Source: a virus. Taken from it: a stretch of DNA of 32,369 nt. The notes beneath the pieces were generated by a model. That model was not told the origin of the DNA, searched no databases, and saw nothing but the letters and a program-made list of their open reading frames with translations. Position 1 is the first letter of the stretch, and each line of letters opens with the position of its first letter. Position numbers and translations under genes: made by a program. Shown in pieces: positions 2,849 through 26,228 of this stretch. The stretch spans positions 1 to 32,369 of IMG/VR virus record IMGVR_UViG_3300021960_000305; one strand, written 5' to 3'.

Positions 2849-5800
2849 TTAGGTACTCAAGGCAATTGCTCTGAAGTCCCGAATTTGTGGAACCTTCGAA
2901 CTGTTTGTTGATTTCATTACAATCTTAAATTGCATCTGATCAAACGGTGTCAAATCGCCATTATCACCTCCAATCAAATACTCATACTCTCTAAACACTG
3001 TTATGTTATCATCTGTCGCTACAGGAGAAATAGTATCCTGTAGAATCCACTCAGTGTTAAACAAGATACCTTCCGCGCTGTCTTGGCTTGTATTAGTTCT
3101 GTAATACAAGTCAACGTAAGAACCATTAGGTCTGTTTGCTGCCAAAAGAACTTTAATGCCTGTTGCAGGATTTTCTAGAGCGACAGGAAGAGTAATATGC
3201 TTAGCGAGATGAGTACCACCTGATGGTGAAGTTTCTGCAATGTACGTATTAGGTACATTGAATCCACTCGTTGCAGCTGCAGCCTGTCTGTCGATCAAAT
3301 TGTTGACAGCAAGAATTGAGCAACGCTGCATATCGAGCATAGGCGATACATTGCTATTCGAAGAATTCAAAATAGCGTTGATTTGAACTGACTTGTTACC
3401 ATTGTTGGCATCGAACCCTTGCGCTGCCTCAACCCGCTCTGATGCAATCACTTTAGGTGTGTTAAATATGTTATTATCGTTAATAACAATTGGTGTGAAT
3501 GAGGTATCTTGATTGTACCCACTTAGACCATCATTCGACGTCAATGAAACACCAGAAAGGAATTTACCTGTAAATCTTATTGTAGTGTTTGGAGGAACGA
3601 GGGTTTCGACTAGCGGAACAGCAACGTCCATCATTACTTGTCGTTCAGTTAGTACTGCGGTTCCTCCACCCAACGCTGTCGCGTTTGCAGCAGAATCAGC
3701 TATGATCTTAAATCCGTATCCATCGACTGATTCAATTGTTCTCACGCCATTGATAGAGCCTGCTGATATACCACCAACAGCTTCTGCCCCAGCAATGTTA
3801 ACCGTATCTCCAACAACAAAACCATGTCCTGTTAGAGGAATGTATACACCAGAGTCTCCGGAGTCGGTCAACAATTCGTTCGTTTGAATTAATTCAAGAG
3901 GTGTTGTTACATTCACTAGTCTAGCGACACCCTGGCTTGTACTAAAGTTTGCTTTATACAAAGTAAACATTAAATCACGTTCTTGATCAGGAGTCCATGT
4001 TCTAGCGTTCTGTGACTTAAACAACGAACCGAGAGAAGGTTGTTTAGCAACTCTCGCTGCAGTCGTGTTCAATTGGAAATCACCAGCCTTCGATACATAG
4101 ACATTGTACGTCGTTGTATCAGCGATCAACACAATTGAGTACTCGTTACCACCTGTTAGATAAACAGGTTCGTCAAACTCAAATACAGTTTCTAGTCCTT
4201 GTACATCTGTCATAGAAGCTGTAGTTAGATCAGCAGGGACCGCTGTTGGCACTTGCTGTGTCATCGCTAGAATTTCTGTTGATGATGGAACACCATTCAC
4301 TGTTGGTCTAATTTGACAAATCACAGGAATTGTTGAATCCACAGTAGCAAAGTGGATACCAACCTTTGTTACATACACACCCTCTGTTTCAGGAACAAAG
4401 AATGTCTGAGCTAGAGGATCAACCAACCAAGCTCTTGTGGTAGTACCACCTCCAATAACAATCCGTCTCGTTGCAACAATGTCGCGTTGTCGAGTTTCCA
4501 AAACTCCCGTTGACGTAAAGTTCGCACGTGCAATACATAGCGCGTTGTCATCTTGCGCTACATTAATATCCATTAATTTGAACTCGCGGGTACCAGTTCT
4601 GAATCTTCTTGCGGCTGTAGACGGAATGAAGAATGAACCAGCAAGCGTACCATCAGCACCTGTAATGATTTCAGATGTTGGAGTATCGGGGTGCTGAGTT
4701 GCAGCATTATAACGGTTACCATAATCTTCGTCGTTTTGACTGTGACGAGAATACGATTCAACTTTAACCCACGACGACACATCCACATTATCAAAGAATG
4801 GGAACATTCTGTGGTTAGGTTTTAGACCCCAAGCCCTGAAATACACCTTTCTTGAACGCATGAATGGAATAAAAGCGGTATCTAATAATCTGTCTCCGAC
4901 AGTATTACGAATAACTCTATCAGACGTAATACGTGCTGTTTGGAACGTGCCTACTACTGTCCTCCATCCCCGCATTCTGTGACTAATACGTCGCTCTATT
5001 GATTCGTTCTGAACCGAAGCACCAAATGTTGCCTGACCTTGTAGTTGACCAGCCCAATTCCACAACCAATTATTCCAACCAAAACTAGCATTGTTGCTGA
5101 TTGTGACCCCGCCATCTATCACATTGTCGGCAACATAGTCACGTTCGACCCAGTTATCCGTTGTAGGTGAAAGTTCCATGAAACCTTCTTTGCGTACAAC
5201 AGCATAAGGATTAATGTTAATATATTCGCTTGCAAACTGCTGATCTTGATATGTTGAGTGAGTGTATGACAAATAAACATTGTCGCCCTTCAATACAACA
5301 TTAGTCGAATTGTCCGAGTCGAACTTCAATCGGCGCTCTTGTTCAACAAACGACGGTCTAAGAATCCCTTGTTGAGGATCAATAGAGGCATGATAATCAG
5401 CACTCGTTGTTAATGCACGAGCATGATCGTAGAAATTATCTACAAAGAAACCAGACTTGAGACGAGAATTACCAGCGGAATCAAATACCAGTAAGTTATC
5501 TGTTTGAGTCTCTAGTAGAGATAGCGAAGTGACTTCTTCAAGTTTTGACAACCGTTGCTCGAGCAAATCGATATCTTGCATTGTGTATCGTTGTGCGCGA
5601 ATCTGGTTAGTAAACAAATCTCCATCATTTAACATGTATGGATTCATGTGAACATGGAACAAATCCAACGTGCCTGTTGGTTTAGCTGGTAACTGAGGGA
5701 CAAGAGAAGGTTCACCCTCTAGAACACTAACGGCACTGTTCTGATCAATACCAATTCTCAATGTCTTGCCAAGATAATACTTCACATCAGCTTGTACAGC

Positions 5801-7957
5801 CTGAGCATTTCTTGGTAATCTAAATTGAATTGATCCTGCACTTGTAAAGTCATCGCTCGGACTCTTTACAGAACGGAAATCAAGTACATCTCTGAGATTG
5901 ACTGTAGAACCATCGTCTTTTGTATAGTCAGGAATATCTTCATAGTCAATCTGTCCTGAATATGAGTTTACGGCAAAATAGTGGCCACCTGCCAAATGCT
6001 CGAAATACCTGAACTGTACATATACATCACCTGCTGGTGCTGTTTGTCCTGGCTTGAGTCTCAATTGACCCAAATCATAATGTGTATCCCTTTGACCATT
6101 GTCAAACTCATAACGAGAAGAAATGTCAGCTCCTGAAACTGAGCCACTTCTGATTGCTAACACATCGTAAACATCTGCTTTTCCTAAATTAACAGTACCA
6201 TTACCTGCAGGTGTGATTGTACTTGTAGTAGTTGTAAGACTTTTCTGCTTAGGTTGGGCATTGGTCAACAACACAAAACCATGAACTTCTAACAATGTTC
6301 CATCGTCTATTGTTACGGTATCAATGTTAAAGTTTGCAAACGTATCACCCGCCGTACCACCACTAGCAAGCGTTGCCGTGAACGAAACATCAGAGTCTCT
6401 ACTAAACACAAAATCAGTTGTGTTAGTCCAATCTGCATCTGTTAATCCAGTTAATTGAACTTGGTTGCTTGTAGCAGAGATTGATCCGAAATAGCGGTGA
6501 ACAGTAATATCTGCACCAGTGACGCTTTGTGGTCGTGTGATTGGCAAATCAAATAAGTATGAGCTCGCAGCTGCTTCTTTCAAAACCGCAGTGTCGTTTT
6601 CTGCAAGAATATTGATATAGTTTGTTGTGCTTGTGCCCAATGATGCCAAACCGCCTAAGTTCGCGCCAGACTCTCTTTCCACACCAAACAAATGAATTCG
6701 GAAGTTACCATCGTTGTTTTCTTCTACGGCACTAACATAAGCAGTACCAAGAGTGGTCCCTGTAAAATTAGATCCACTCTTTAGCGTTACTTGTTCGAAC
6801 GGATTAGGCAAACCAGCGTTTGAACTAGCAACACCAATATAGTAATAACCATACGAAGCACTAATTGCTTCATCTGTTGTTAATTCAGTTGTTCGTGGCT
6901 TATCAATTGTAAACTTCGTTGGAAGATTAATAAACGCTCTGTACCCATCAACATACGCTACACCATTACTAATGTCTAAATCAACTTTTGTATTGTCATC
7001 TTCGTTCGTATCAAATTTAAGAATAAAATTCTTGGCAATGTAGTTACCTGATTCTTCGAATGTTCTAGTAGCTAACAATTTTTCAGGAATGTTGTAATCA
7101 TCACCAGTTACATTTTCGTCTATCTTCACTCCGTTGCGTATTTGAGCAAGATAGATGTAGTTGTCGGTTGCAGTGAGGTCCTCAATCACAGCAAGTGTGA
7201 GACGGATTCTGTAACGGTCTGCACCAGGCGCAGATCTGTTTAGTGTTGCACCTTGATTGTCAAACAAATTAGGGTCATCTGCCGTAGTAACAATGCTTTC
7301 TGTTACCTTCAAGCCGATAGTTGCGTTGGGAGTACTAGAATATTTGGAAACGATAATACTCTGTGAACCAGTAAATACTAATCTTTCCTTGACATAAAAA
7401 TCACCAGCGTCAATAGAAAACCGTGTACCTTGTCCCACAGCTGGATTGGATGGAGTGTTAGTTGTCTGTACAGTAAATGTAAAATCACCTCCCGACAATG
7501 TAGTACCGGGTGTAACTCTAATTGGTTCGCTACCAGCTGTTTCTGCTTGGGTACTGACATAGCGAACAAACAGCGTTGCAGGCTCTGCTGCACTAACATA
7601 GGCTGTGCTCTCAATCACCTCTACGATGACACCCTCAGTACTTGTCAATCGTTGACTACCTGAGTTTAGTGTAGTTAGAGCGGCTCCTGTAGGGTAAGGA
7701 TTAATTGATGTATCTAACTTAATGAATTCATATTCATTGTTAGACGTCATGTTTCCCGAATTGACAGGGTTACCATCTTTAAACAGATGTCGCAGCAAAC
7801 GAGACATTTCTGTCTGTGTAATCGTTTGCATCTGTGTAAGTTCACGAGCCTGCAAAGCACGGCCGGCGTTAAACAGAATACGGTGATAGTTGTCGCTATC
7901 AACGTAATCGTCTTTATAGGTAGATGCAAATAAATTTTTCGAGAAACTTGTAGCCAT
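2849..7957 (-). CDS. Giant DUF4815 baseplate/virion structural protein
   Basis: This 1702-residue protein is the largest complete gene in the window. Residues about 1-70 (KNLFAST, DNYHRILFNAGRALQARELTQ) match the start of the DUF4815 family found in large structural proteins of T4-like marine phages. The C-terminal end (QMQFKIVMKSTNSSKVPQIRDFRAIAL) is also typical of that family. The body is rich in Thr, Ser, Asn and Asp with beta-strand patterning and no catalytic motif. It sits directly after gp8, where T4 carries the gp9-gp12 wedge and fibre set. A gp10-like role as a large peripheral wedge protein or fibre-attachment protein is therefore plausible, but this is positional inference. The start follows an RBS-like AGAGTAG stretch. 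The DUF4815 assignment is more certain than the function. Confidence 0.88.
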   Translation of the reverse strand: MATSFSKNLFASTYKDDYVDSDNYHRILFNAGRALQARELTQMQTITQTEMSRLLRHLFKDGNPVNSGNMTSNNEYEFIKLDTSINPYPTGAALTTLNSGSQRLTSTEGVIVEVIESTAYVSAAEPATLFVRYVSTQAETAGSEPIRVTPGTTLSGGDFTFTVQTTNTPSNPAVGQGTRFSIDAGDFYVKERLVFTGSQSIIVSKYSSTPNATIGLKVTESIVTTADDPNLFDNQGATLNRSAPGADRYRIRLTLAVIEDLTATDNYIYLAQIRNGVKIDENVTGDDYNIPEKLLATRTFEESGNYIAKNFILKFDTNEDDNTKVDLDISNGVAYVDGYRAFINLPTKFTIDKPRTTELTTDEAISASYGYYYIGVASSNAGLPNPFEQVTLKSGSNFTGTTLGTAYVSAVEENNDGNFRIHLFGVERESGANLGGLASLGTSTTNYINILAENDTAVLKEAAASSYLFDLPITRPQSVTGADITVHRYFGSISATSNQVQLTGLTDADWTNTTDFVFSRDSDVSFTATLASGGTAGDTFANFNIDTVTIDDGTLLEVHGFVLLTNAQPKQKSLTTTTSTITPAGNGTVNLGKADVYDVLAIRSGSVSGADISSRYEFDNGQRDTHYDLGQLRLKPGQTAPAGDVYVQFRYFEHLAGGHYFAVNSYSGQIDYEDIPDYTKDDGSTVNLRDVLDFRSVKSPSDDFTSAGSIQFRLPRNAQAVQADVKYYLGKTLRIGIDQNSAVSVLEGEPSLVPQLPAKPTGTLDLFHVHMNPYMLNDGDLFTNQIRAQRYTMQDIDLLEQRLSKLEEVTSLSLLETQTDNLLVFDSAGNSRLKSGFFVDNFYDHARALTTSADYHASIDPQQGILRPSFVEQERRLKFDSDNSTNVVLKGDNVYLSYTHSTYQDQQFASEYININPYAVVRKEGFMELSPTTDNWVERDYVADNVIDGGVTISNNASFGWNNWLWNWAGQLQGQATFGASVQNESIERRISHRMRGWRTVVGTFQTARITSDRVIRNTVGDRLLDTAFIPFMRSRKVYFRAWGLKPNHRMFPFFDNVDVSSWVKVESYSRHSQNDEDYGNRYNAATQHPDTPTSEIITGADGTLAGSFFIPSTAARRFRTGTREFKLMDINVAQDDNALCIARANFTSTGVLETRQRDIVATRRIVIGGGTTTRAWLVDPLAQTFFVPETEGVYVTKVGIHFATVDSTIPVICQIRPTVNGVPSSTEILAMTQQVPTAVPADLTTASMTDVQGLETVFEFDEPVYLTGGNEYSIVLIADTTTYNVYVSKAGDFQLNTTAARVAKQPSLGSLFKSQNARTWTPDQERDLMFTLYKANFSTSQGVARLVNVTTPLELIQTNELLTDSGDSGVYIPLTGHGFVVGDTVNIAGAEAVGGISAGSINGVRTIESVDGYGFKIIADSAANATALGGGTAVLTERQVMMDVAVPLVETLVPPNTTIRFTGKFLSGVSLTSNDGLSGYNQDTSFTPIVINDNNIFNTPKVIASERVEAAQGFDANNGNKSVQINAILNSSNSNVSPMLDMQRCSILAVNNLIDRQAAAATSGFNVPNTYIAETSPSGGTHLAKHITLPVALENPATGIKVLLAANRPNGSYVDLYYRTNTSQDSAEGILFNTEWILQDTISPVATDDNITVFREYEYLIGGDNGDLTPFDQMQFKIVMKSTNSSKVPQIRDFRAIALST

Positions 7958-21883: not shown

Positions 21884-22384
21884 ATGGCTTACTCTGGCAA
21901 GTTTAGTCCTAAGAATGTAAACAAGTATGCAGGCGACTACACAAACATCATCTTTCGATCGATGTGGGAGAGGCATGCGTTCAAATGGTGTGATGAGAAC
22001 CCTCAAGTAGTGAAGTGGTCAAGTGAAGAAATCGTTGTTCCGTACTACTGGGAAATAGATAAACGATACCACAGATACTTCGTTGATCTCAAAATTACTT
22101 TTTCCAATGGCAAGACAATACTTGTAGAGATAAAACCTGAAAAAGAAACACAGGTACCGAAGAAGCCAGATCGTTCTAAACGATACATCAGTGAAGCAAT
22201 GACGTATGTTAAGAATCAAAACAAATGGAAAGCAGCAACAGAGTATGCTAAAGATCGAGGATGGGAGTTTCAGGTATGGACAGAGGAAACGTTAAAGAAA
22301 TATGGTATAATGACAAAGGATCTTCCTAAGACTCTCAAACCAATAAAGAAGTTGAAGCCACTGAGAGTTAGAAAAACAGTATAA
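21884..22384 (+). CDS. gp4: Head completion protein gp4
   Basis: This 166-residue protein is close to T4 gp4 (150). The pattern is that of the gp4 family: NKYAGDYTNIIFRSMWE, VVKWSSEEIVVPYYWEIDKR, HRYFVDLKITFSNGK, ILVEIKPEKETQVPKKP, KWKAATEYAKDRGWEFQVWTE (quoted in pieces). gp4 joins the filled head in its last maturation step so that the tail can bind. The fold resembles TnsA / restriction-type nucleases, and the matching acidic residues are visible as Glu29, Asp68 and Glu82-Ile-Lys84. Whether it cuts DNA is not known to me. It is the first plus-strand gene after the divergent promoter gap. The C-terminus is Lys-rich. Confidence 0.92.
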   Translation: MAYSGKFSPKNVNKYAGDYTNIIFRSMWERHAFKWCDENPQVVKWSSEEIVVPYYWEIDKRYHRYFVDLKITFSNGKTILVEIKPEKETQVPKKPDRSKRYISEAMTYVKNQNKWKAATEYAKDRGWEFQVWTEETLKKYGIMTKDLPKTLKPIKKLKPLRVRKTV

Positions 22385-23705: not shown

Positions 23706-24404
23706 ATGGCATTACCTAGACTGAATACTGAACCGAAATTTAGAATCAATATACCATCAACGGGCAAGCAGAGTCGGTTCCGACCTTTCCTAGTCAAAGA
23801 GGAAAAGGTACTGATGTTAGCAATGGAATCAAAAGATGAACGTCTGATGTTAGACGCTGTAGCTGATACAATCGTTGCTTGCATTGAGGATGATATCGAT
23901 AAAAGTAAGTTAACAACATTTGATATTGAATATTTGTTTACAAAGATTCGAGCGAAGTCGGTAGGAGAGATTACTCGAGTTAATATCAAATGTCAGAATT
24001 GTGAGCATGATAACGAAGTTGGTATCAATATCGATGAAGTGAAAATGACTGTCAAGCAAAACGAGTCGATGATTAAACTCGATGATGGTATCACACTGGA
24101 AATGAAATGGCCAACACTAGAAGATGTTATCAATGCTCCAACGGAGATGGATATTAAGAGTATCTTTACAATGTTGCGGATTGCAATGATGGCGATCCAC
24201 ACGAATGATGAACGGATTGACTTATCAGAATACAGTGATAAAGAAGTAGAAGATTTTATTGAGTCGATGAATACAGAACAGTTCAATAAGATCAAAGAAT
24301 ACATGGAAGCAATTCCTACACTAAAACACAAGGTTGAGTTTGATTGTGTAAGTTGTCAGACTCATAATGAATTGACACTGGAGGGCATGCAGAGTTTTTT
24401 CTAG
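23706..24404 (+). CDS. gp26: Baseplate hub protein gp26 (probable 0-frame tail assembly chaperone)
   Basis: This 232-residue protein matches the T4 gp26 baseplate protein family, with KQSRFRPFLVKEEKVLMLAMES near the start and two CxxC pairs, Cys96/Cys99 in IKCQNCEHDNE and Cys214/Cys217 in DCVSCQTHNE, which could bind one zinc. It is followed by the short coiled 63-codon frame and then the tape measure gene, the order seen for tail assembly chaperones. The last codons read AGT TTT TTC TAG, so the stop is preceded by a T TTT TTC slippery heptamer. The gene may therefore make two products: 232 residues, and about 296 residues after a -1 shift. A GGAG motif lies 11 bases before the ATG. Confidence 0.88.
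   Translation: MALPRLNTEPKFRINIPSTGKQSRFRPFLVKEEKVLMLAMESKDERLMLDAVADTIVACIEDDIDKSKLTTFDIEYLFTKIRAKSVGEITRVNIKCQNCEHDNEVGINIDEVKMTVKQNESMIKLDDGITLEMKWPTLEDVINAPTEMDIKSIFTMLRIAMMAIHTNDERIDLSEYSDKEVEDFIESMNTEQFNKIKEYMEAIPTLKHKVEFDCVSCQTHNELTLEGMQSFF
24395..24401 (+). promoter_or_regulatory. Candidate -1 ribosomal frameshift slippery heptamer
   Basis: T TTT TTC in the gp26 reading frame fits X-XXY-YYZ exactly and is followed at once by the TAG stop. After a one-base backward slip both tRNA-Phe re-pair perfectly with TTT TTT. The ribosome then enters the frame of the next ORF with CTA GTG TGT. Confidence 0.75.
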
Positions 24405-24595
24405 TGTGTCTATCTCATGATAGCTTGTTGAATCACTACTCTACAAAGTTTCAGCTGATGCAACACCATAAATATAGTTTGACTGAGATAGACGATATGA
24501 TACCCTGGGAGAAAGAAGTTTATCTTAACATGCTTATCGAGCATCTAAAAGAAGAAGAAGAACGTATAAAAGCAGAGAAGCAAAAGTATGGCTAG
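24401..24595 (+). CDS. -1 frame extension of gp26 (gp51-like/T-like tail chaperone segment)
   Basis: This frame is open from 24371 to the stop at 24593-24595 and has no ATG until 24458, which would leave only 45 residues. A GTG at 24404 overlapping the gp26 TAG is the only other likely start. It has no good Shine-Dalgarno motif. The encoded part contains SLTEIDDMIPWEKEVYLNML followed by a highly charged EEEERIKAEKQK helix. This resembles the short hub-assembly proteins (T4 gp51 type) and the T part of chaperones made by frameshift just before a tape measure gene. The likely main product is a gp26 fusion of about 296 residues. Independent translation from GTG is the alternative. The end overlaps the tape measure start by 8 bases. 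Confidence 0.7.
   Translation, partial: LVCLSHDSLLNHYSTKFQLMQHHKYSLTEIDDMIPWEKEVYLNMLIEHLKEEEERIKAEKQKYG
24402..24438 (+). promoter_or_regulatory. RNA hairpin downstream of the slippery site
   Basis: CTATC at 24410-24414 and GATAG at 24419-24423 form a perfect 5-bp stem with a 4-base loop, 8 bases after the heptamer. TAGTG (24402-24406) can also pair with CACTA (24434-24438) around it. The first distance is the usual spacing for -1 stimulatory structures. The stem is short and A+U-rich, so its strength is uncertain. Confidence 0.5.
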
Positions 24596-26228
24596 TGTAA
24601 CACTCAATGACGTTGTTGATCAATTAAAGACTAACAACAAAATGGTCGAAAAGACCAACTCTCATCTTGAGACTTTTATCAAGAGTATCGATCGTTCGCG
24701 TTTAGATCAACTCGAAGCAATGAGAGAGTCAAGGAGAGGTGGTGATACACCTACAGCTGCTGGTGGTACCACTTCCCAACAAGGTGGTAGTAACATAGCT
24801 ATGCTGATGGCTGGTATTGCAGCTGCAGTAGCAGGTTTCTTTTCAGGCATCATGGACTCTGTAAAGGCATTATTTAGCCTAACGAGATTAGATAAAGCAT
24901 TTGCTGGTATCAAAGGATTGTTTACCAGTACAGGTGCAATAGGAAAACTGTTTACTGATTTCAAAGCCAGATGGTTGATGTACGTCGATGATGCGATGAG
25001 AGGGATTGGTAAACTATTTCAACCCATCACAGATGTATTCAAACCGAATGGCGCTGTCGGTAAGTTGTTTTTAAATGTCCGACTTCGCTGGGCAATGTTT
25101 GCTGATGATGCTCTTCGTGTTGTCGACAATGGTATCAAACCAATAACAAATATATTTTCAGCTGAAGGTAAGATTGCTCAGCTGTTTAAAGCAATTGCTA
25201 GACCATTCATGTTCCCGTTCGAAGGGTTCATTGATAATGTAGCAAAGCCATTCAGGTCATTATTCACTGTCGGTGAAGGAGCAATTAGTAAAATCTTCAC
25301 CTCAGTTGCTAGGCCATTCCAGGTAGTTGGTACATTCATGGCTGACCTAATTAAACCTTTCACTACTGCATTTAATGCTGTCAAGGGCTCGTTTGCAATC
25401 TTTAGTGAGGGTGGTGCACTAATGAAGATCCTTGGTGGTCTAGGACAAACGCTTGGTAGATTGTTCTTTCCTCTTACGTTAATCATGACAGCATATGATA
25501 CGGTCAAAGGAGCAATCACAGGTTTTGAGGAAGATGGTTTCCTTGGTGGAATTCAAGGAGCGATTACTGGATTGTTGAATTCAATTGTTGGTATCCCACT
25601 CGATCTATTGAAGAGCGCTGTATCTTGGATCATCGGCAAGATGGGATTCAGTAATGCTGAACGGATGCTCGATAGCTTTAGCTTCGAAGATATAATTACC
25701 AAAGCAATAGGTGGCGTGTTCAATTTATTTAAGAGTGTTGTCAATGGACTGCTAGAGGCAATTGCAACAGCTGTATCTGCTCTACCACTTGTCCCTGATT
25801 CAGTTGGTAATTCAATCCGTAGCCTGAAGTTTGATATGAGGCAGGAGACTGCTGCTGAAGCAAGTTCGCCTTATCAGATAGAGCCGAAAAGCGGATCAAA
25901 TAATGTCGACCGACCACCGGCCGTCTCATCTTCTTCTGGTGTTTCTGATGGTGTTGGTCCTGTGTTGTCAACACAACCTCGTGTCCAAAATGGGATTGGT
26001 CCTGTTTCTTCAAGTACCAGACCTGTAACAGGTATGCAGAATGGTATTGGATCTGTACTAACAGAGCAGAGAAGAAGAACGGAGGCAGCTGCCGCTAGAC
26101 AAGCTCCTCCGACTGTTATAAGCACAGGTGGTAATACTACCAGCAATGTAAGTCAGAATACTACCAATATGATAAGTGGCGGTATGCCCGCCACCCGTGA
26201 TAGAAACGACTCTTATCAGCAGTATTAA
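24588..26228 (+). CDS. Tail tape measure protein (T4 gp29 position)
   Basis: The protein is 546 residues, similar to T4 gp29 (590), which sets tail length and is part of the hub. It has a charged coiled start (residues 1-50), a Gly/Thr/Gln linker, and a membrane-like stretch (IAMLMAGIAAAVAGFFSGIMD, residues about 70-90). Four or five amphipathic repeats follow (about 112-271). Then come hydrophobic segments around residues 275-345 (GGLGQTLGRLFFPLTLIMTA, FLGGIQGAITGLLNSIVGIP). A low-complexity Ser/Pro/Gly tail holds three copies of QNGIGPV/SV-like motifs. Long amphipathic composition, hydrophobic segments and position directly after the chaperone-like genes all point to a tape measure. The 3' end overlaps the convergent gp32 gene by 4 bases. 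Confidence 0.82.
   Translation: MASVTLNDVVDQLKTNNKMVEKTNSHLETFIKSIDRSRLDQLEAMRESRRGGDTPTAAGGTTSQQGGSNIAMLMAGIAAAVAGFFSGIMDSVKALFSLTRLDKAFAGIKGLFTSTGAIGKLFTDFKARWLMYVDDAMRGIGKLFQPITDVFKPNGAVGKLFLNVRLRWAMFADDALRVVDNGIKPITNIFSAEGKIAQLFKAIARPFMFPFEGFIDNVAKPFRSLFTVGEGAISKIFTSVARPFQVVGTFMADLIKPFTTAFNAVKGSFAIFSEGGALMKILGGLGQTLGRLFFPLTLIMTAYDTVKGAITGFEEDGFLGGIQGAITGLLNSIVGIPLDLLKSAVSWIIGKMGFSNAERMLDSFSFEDIITKAIGGVFNLFKSVVNGLLEAIATAVSALPLVPDSVGNSIRSLKFDMRQETAAEASSPYQIEPKSGSNNVDRPPAVSSSSGVSDGVGPVLSTQPRVQNGIGPVSSSTRPVTGMQNGIGSVLTEQRRRTEAAAARQAPPTVISTGGNTTSNVSQNTTNMISGGMPATRDRNDSYQQY
24921..25400 (+). repeat. About 39-residue repeats in the tape measure protein
   Basis: Two clear copies (residues 112-150 and 151-189) share F-x(3)-GA(I/V)GKLF, RW-x-MYVDDAMR / RWAMFADDALR and a PIT(D/N)(V/I) end. 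Two or more shorter, diverged copies follow (about 190-225 and 226-271, with GKIAQLF and GAISKIF starts and RPF motifs). The regular period suggests a rod built from repeated helical pairs. Confidence 0.65.

Follow-up and report, generated by a model that had tools for sequence, protein, structure and literature searches.

A Tail Assembly Chaperone Gene in an Uncultured Marine T4-Like Phage, Very Probably Expressed by Programmed -1 Ribosomal Frameshifting

RESULTS

Gene organization upstream of the tape measure gene

The window analyzed here is the entire 32,369-base virus record IMGVR_UViG_3300021960_000305 (positions 1 to 32,369), which derives from an uncultured marine T4-like phage. Based on profile matches, its gene line-up comprises head closure, DNA end protector, tail tube, gp26, gp51, tape measure and gp32-like genes. 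Directly upstream of the tape measure gene, two open reading frames (ORFs) overlap: the gp26-like gene and an ORF in the -1 frame that runs to position 24595. The features of this region are listed below.

23706..24404, + strand: gp26-like gene, whose zero-frame product is the predicted short tail assembly chaperone (TAC-N), 232 aa (family T4_baseplate, PF12322, E 4.8e-60; phrog_150, E 1.9e-61)
24380..24384, + strand: GGAGG, a Shine-Dalgarno (SD)-like element and putative stimulator ending 10 nt 5' of the heptamer (GAGG counts and third-position G excess in 140 relatives)
24395..24401, + strand: slippery heptamer T TTT TTC, of the form X XXY YYZ in the gp26 phase (conserved in phase in related loci; codon-usage test)
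24402..24404, + strand: zero-frame stop TAG, abutting the heptamer (stop 0 codons after the heptamer in 120/400 related loci, one codon after in 259/400)
24401..24595, + strand: -1 frame extension, a gp51-like TAC-C domain of 64 aa that would be read after the slip (phrog_634, E 3.4e-28; conserved protein alignment; aligned with the T4 gp51 C terminus)
24404..24406, + strand: GTG overlapping the gp26 stop (TAGTG), the sole plausible rival start for a free gp51 (Val codon; GTA, ATA or ATT in most relatives)
24410..24423, + strand: 5-bp hairpin from the first-pass annotation, not supported as functional (fold z -0.33 to +0.59; complete in 3/39 same-class relatives)
24588..26228, + strand: gene for the tape measure protein, 546 aa, sharing 8 bases with the -1 frame ORF (phrog_1272, tail length tape measure in PHROGs, E 9.3e-10)

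The 3' end of gp26 reads ATG CAG AGT TTT TTC TAG, which agrees with the first-pass annotation of a heptamer touching the stop codon. As also annotated, the -1 frame opens at 24371 and has no ATG before 24458, and the tape measure ORF follows with its start inside the -1 ORF. The stop of the -1 frame lies at 24593-24595. Absent from the annotation are three other possible starts of this frame, a GTG at 24404 and TTGs at 24425 and 24428. The annotation likened the frame to a short hub or tail assembly protein; it encodes the gp51 domain (phrog_634).

Elsewhere in the window, the gp4-like head-closure protein (21884-22384) carries a TnsA-like endonuclease N-terminal domain (PF08722, E 2.6e-18). 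A minus-strand ORF of 1702 aa in the structural module (2849-7957) has a very strong match to phrog_358, of unknown function.

Homology to T4 gp26 and gp51

A profile of the fusion product, 296 aa in length when the two frames are joined, aligns over nearly its full length with T4 gp51 (20-279 against 12-244 of 249; hhalign prob 97.4). The first part of T4 gp51 is covered by the TAC-N profile and its C terminus by the TAC-C profile, which matches residues 207-244 in hmmsearch. In addition, the gp26 profile aligns with T4 gp26 (hhalign prob 99.4). The likeness of the fusion to T4 gp51 and of gp26 to T4 gp26 therefore points to a tail assembly chaperone (TAC-N/TAC-NC) resembling lambda G/GT. T4 gp26 thus corresponds to TAC-N and T4 gp51 to the whole TAC-NC. 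However, T4 carries two complete, separate and diverged genes (20% identity between gp26 and gp51, blastp E 1.7e-6) and uses no frameshift, so that a single locus of the window phage would make what T4 encodes in two. Frameshifting is reportedly conserved in several T4-like groups, and T4 itself is said to use genes 26 and 51.

The AlphaFold2 model of gp26 (pLDDT 90.6) was compared with known structures. Residues 1-86 match 3fgx (Z 8.1), the HK97 TAC 2ob9 (Z 7.4) and YqbN 3klu (Z 7.0), with the next match at 4.4; a Z near 8 is hardly above the level at which caution is due, and taken alone it may reflect a common arrangement. We take 3klu and 3fgx to be prophage TAC-like proteins. Foldseek paired the gp26 model with 2ob9 (prob 0.82, E 0.93) and, in BFVD, with gp26/baseplate-hub proteins. 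A PDB sequence search with the gp26 and gp51 profiles returned no match, and NCBIfam holds no model for either the gp26 or the gp51 part.

Two C-x-x-C pairs in gp26, CQNC (23991-24002) and CVSC (24345-24356), flank its middle domain and could be metal-binding knuckles. Cysteines also occur at similar positions in T4 gp26 (CTC and CPEC).

Conservation of the heptamer and the -1 frame

Approximately 400 related loci, some of them near-duplicates, were collected from IMG/VR, genome contigs and annotated phages. T4-like phage contigs L302 to L305 among them are binned in GTDB MAGs labelled Gammaproteobacteria, Thiotrichaceae, Sphingobacteriales and Nitrospinota, labels that are no guide to hosts. 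In 397 of the 400 loci, gp26 has an in-phase T TTT TTN among its last codons and gp51 lies in the -1 frame. All 397 have a -1 frame that stays open for 50 codons or more beyond the stop. The six-T run occurs in Kyanoviridae, uncultured marine relatives, Sinorhizobium phage phiM12, Rhizobium phage IG49, Aeromonas phage PX29, Vibrio phage nt-1 and others.

The three loci without a heptamer belong to Dickeya phage LIMEstone1 and Vibrio phages 207E48.1 (listed as Ackermannviridae) and D494. Here, the gp51 ATG overlaps the gp26 stop (TAATG). They are the only relatives to go against the annotation's own test, by which an independent ATG and RBS without a heptamer would speak against frameshifting. 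This suggests that Ackermannviridae or Ackermannviridae-like relatives express the same gp26/gp51 pair by another route. The TAATG overlaps without a T run lie at 3271-3456 (locus L131), 3046-3298 (L133) and 3163-3375 (L134).

Codon usage was examined in a dereplicated set of 140 loci that were chosen to hold the heptamer, with only LIMEstone1, 207E48.1 and D494 omitted for its absence. The codon before TTT ends in T in 140/140 (log10 P -31.7, set against codon usage in the same loci) and the first Phe codon is TTT in 140/140 (log10 P -22.6), values that are overstated since the loci were treated as independent. The residue before TTT varies (S 67, D 41, N 21, A 8, T 2, H 1), encoded by GAT, AGT, TCT, AAT and GCT among others. 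Because this codon is always NNT across six amino acids, it is the bases that are conserved, and not the residue. It is therefore scarcely credible that the T run merely reflects AT-rich codon usage and a Phe-Phe conserved at the C terminus, next to an incidental -1 ORF. FF or FL is indeed conserved in the protein, and Phe is encoded more often by TTT than by TTC (966 versus 435), but these tendencies are already inconsistent with an invariant NNT TTT, and gp51 is a conserved protein domain that always lies in the -1 frame.

The seventh base of the heptamer is free (C 96, T 31, A 7, G 6). A conserved homopolymer, with seven or eight Ts in some relatives, could also let RNA polymerase slip on the T run and join the frames in the transcript instead of on the ribosome. 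However, the seventh base is not T in 109/140 relatives, including the window phage, so that only six Ts are present there, and six is short for bacterial transcriptional slippage. Polymerase slippage would also leave no role for the upstream SD-like element and the cyanophage hairpins described below. We consider it very improbable.

Start codons in the -1 frame bear on whether gp51 is a separate protein, produced without any fusion by termination and reinitiation at GTG 24404. The TAGTG geometry of this GTG would suit reinitiation, as would the TAATG overlaps in Vibrio phage nt-1 and the three heptamer-less phages. Moreover, 52/140 relatives have an ATG before +47 in the -1 frame, located at +5 in 27 cases, and a subset could therefore make free gp51 as well. 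On the other hand, 51/140 have no ATG, GTG or TTG before +47, and in 17/140 the -1 frame opens exactly at the heptamer. In such loci, the conserved N-terminal part of gp51 is therefore hardly attainable without a shift. The GTG itself is only one among several Val and Ile codons in its alignment column (GTA, ATA, ATT), and reinitiation leaves the invariant six-T run in fixed phase unexplained. T4 gp51, in addition, is a fusion of both parts. As the sole route to gp51, reinitiation thus appears very unlikely, though slightly less so than polymerase slippage; for the window phage alone, some free gp51 is possible as a side product because of the GTG at 24404.

Taken together, the comparison with relatives favors a programmed -1 ribosomal frameshift as by far the best explanation of the locus. 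This comparison rests on the conserved heptamer, the -1 relation of the two frames, the many relatives without a start codon and the homology of the predicted fusion to T4 gp51. The proposal in the first-pass annotation of a short and a C-terminally extended gp26 product, in the manner of lambda G/GT, thereby gains strong comparative support at the sequence level.

Accessory signals around the slip site

Upstream of the heptamer, GAGG occurs at h-20 to h-5 in 67/140 relatives, compared to 2.6% in control windows. Its spacing is exactly 10 nt in 59 of these 67. Third-position G is in excess at codon -5 (z 8.6) and codon -6 (z 5.2) across the 140 relatives. The GGAGG of the window phage, an anti-SD-complementary motif approximately 10 nt before the heptamer, fits this conserved signal and is a putative stimulator of slippage.

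Downstream, the first-pass annotation had pointed to a hairpin 8 nt past the heptamer. Its 5-bp stem (24410-24414/24419-24423) is present, but its stability is at chance level: region 24402-24440 folds with z -0.33 (64/200 shuffles fold as well), and longer stretches give z values of about 0 to +0.59. The inner stem is complete in only 3/39 relatives of the same class. Likewise, the outer TAGTG (24402-24406) can pair with CACTA (24434-24438) as annotated, but this pairing shows no covariation in relatives (p 1.0 and 0.39); it is frequent there because the stop codon faces conserved Asn-His/Tyr-Tyr codons. No stable or conserved RNA structure was found 5-9 nt past the heptamer in the window. 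The hairpin at 24410-24423 was consequently rejected as a stimulator for the window phage and its clade, and the upstream GGAGG is the better-supported candidate accessory signal.

Many cyanophages have a strong hairpin after the slip site (clade mean z -2.45, with 38/71 below -2), compared to a mean of -0.61 in the clade of the window phage. In cyanophages such as S-PM2 and P-SSM2, hairpins of about -14 to -16 kcal/mol lie a few bases past the slip site (3198-3260 of locus L126 and 3208-3265 of L125). Cyanophage subgroups differ in the stem used.

Hairpin strength was also compared with the position of the zero-frame stop. The mean hairpin z equals -0.27 when the stop abuts the heptamer (n=52) versus -1.75 when it lies one codon later (n=122; p 1e-5). 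This trade-off is strong in raw counts; on the tree, with 5 supported (11 in all) independent changes, the association is not significant. A tentative reading, which we hold to be somewhat doubtful, is that T4-like phages use two interchangeable designs. In one, the stop lies one codon past the heptamer and a strong downstream hairpin would drive slippage. In the other, represented by the window phage, the stop abuts the heptamer without a hairpin, and slippage would depend on the upstream SD-like element and slow termination at the adjacent stop.

DISCUSSION

The locus is very probably a T4-like phage tail assembly chaperone gene expressed by programmed -1 ribosomal frameshifting, with ribosomes of the window phage almost certainly slipping back one base on the six-T run. 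Most ribosomes would stop at TAG 24402-24404 and release the 232-aa TAC-N (gp26). In a minority, the Phe-tRNAs on TTT and TTC would re-pair one base back on T TTT TTC, and translation would continue on CTA GTG TGT, adding the gp51 domain to give the 296-aa TAC-NC. If lambda G/GT is a guide, both forms may act together to coat the tape measure protein, whose gene lies immediately downstream, and to deliver it. The occurrence and efficiency of slippage in the window phage, and a stimulating role of the GGAGG, are inferences; the chaperone function is suggested by position, homology and the lambda precedent.

The arrangement resembles lambda gpG/gpGT and the TAC frameshifts of other double-stranded DNA phages, in which a gene pair precedes the tape measure gene and an X XXY YYZ site lies near the end of the first ORF. 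The window phage would share with lambda a short chaperone with a minority -1 extension. It differs in its slip sequence, U UUU UUC compared to G GGA AAG in lambda, and in its larger short form. A second parallel is Escherichia coli dnaX, where an SD-like element approximately 10 nt upstream of the slippery heptamer stimulates -1 frameshifting; the GGAGG spacing of the window phage matches. However, dnaX also has a downstream hairpin, which is not supported in the window phage but is present in many cyanophage relatives, and its frameshift product is the shorter one, not the longer.

Contrary to the first-pass annotation, which knew of no such description for a gp26/gp51-like pair, the arrangement was described by Vladimirov, Gautam and Davidson 2022 (Virology 566:9-15), who identified the TAC genes of T4-like phages. 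In the T4-like phages treated there, gp26 reportedly likewise corresponds to TAC-N and the gp51 domain to TAC-C, and TAC-N ends in a polyT -1 slip site that lies upstream of the tape measure gene. Of two papers citing Vladimirov 2022, one does so for polyT -1 frameshift signals in T4-like TAC-N genes (PMC12846349) and the other for some T4-like phages that instead have a short gene together with a fused long one (PMC10885494). The chaperone frameshift is real, ancient and already known for T4-like phages, and the novelty of the present case is low because polyT frameshifting in their tail chaperones was published in 2022. The window phage probably lies outside that study.

None of the examined public records bearing the heptamer marks a frameshift; gp51 is given as a separate gene, shortened or missing. 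In the C48C1 record it is cut to 35 aa (34 plus stop), and in the S-WAM1 record it is omitted; the likely reason is that the frame lacks a usable start. The corresponding regions are 3208-3391 of locus L123 and 3202-3393 of L127.

With these results, the TAC frameshift known from T4-like phages reaches into a broad clade of uncultured marine phages and gains testable accessory signals, namely the SD-like element, the hairpin and the stop spacing. Rather than being a separate gene, the gp51-like ORF almost certainly encodes the C-terminal domain of a frameshifted chaperone, in the window phage as in hundreds of marine T4-like phages.
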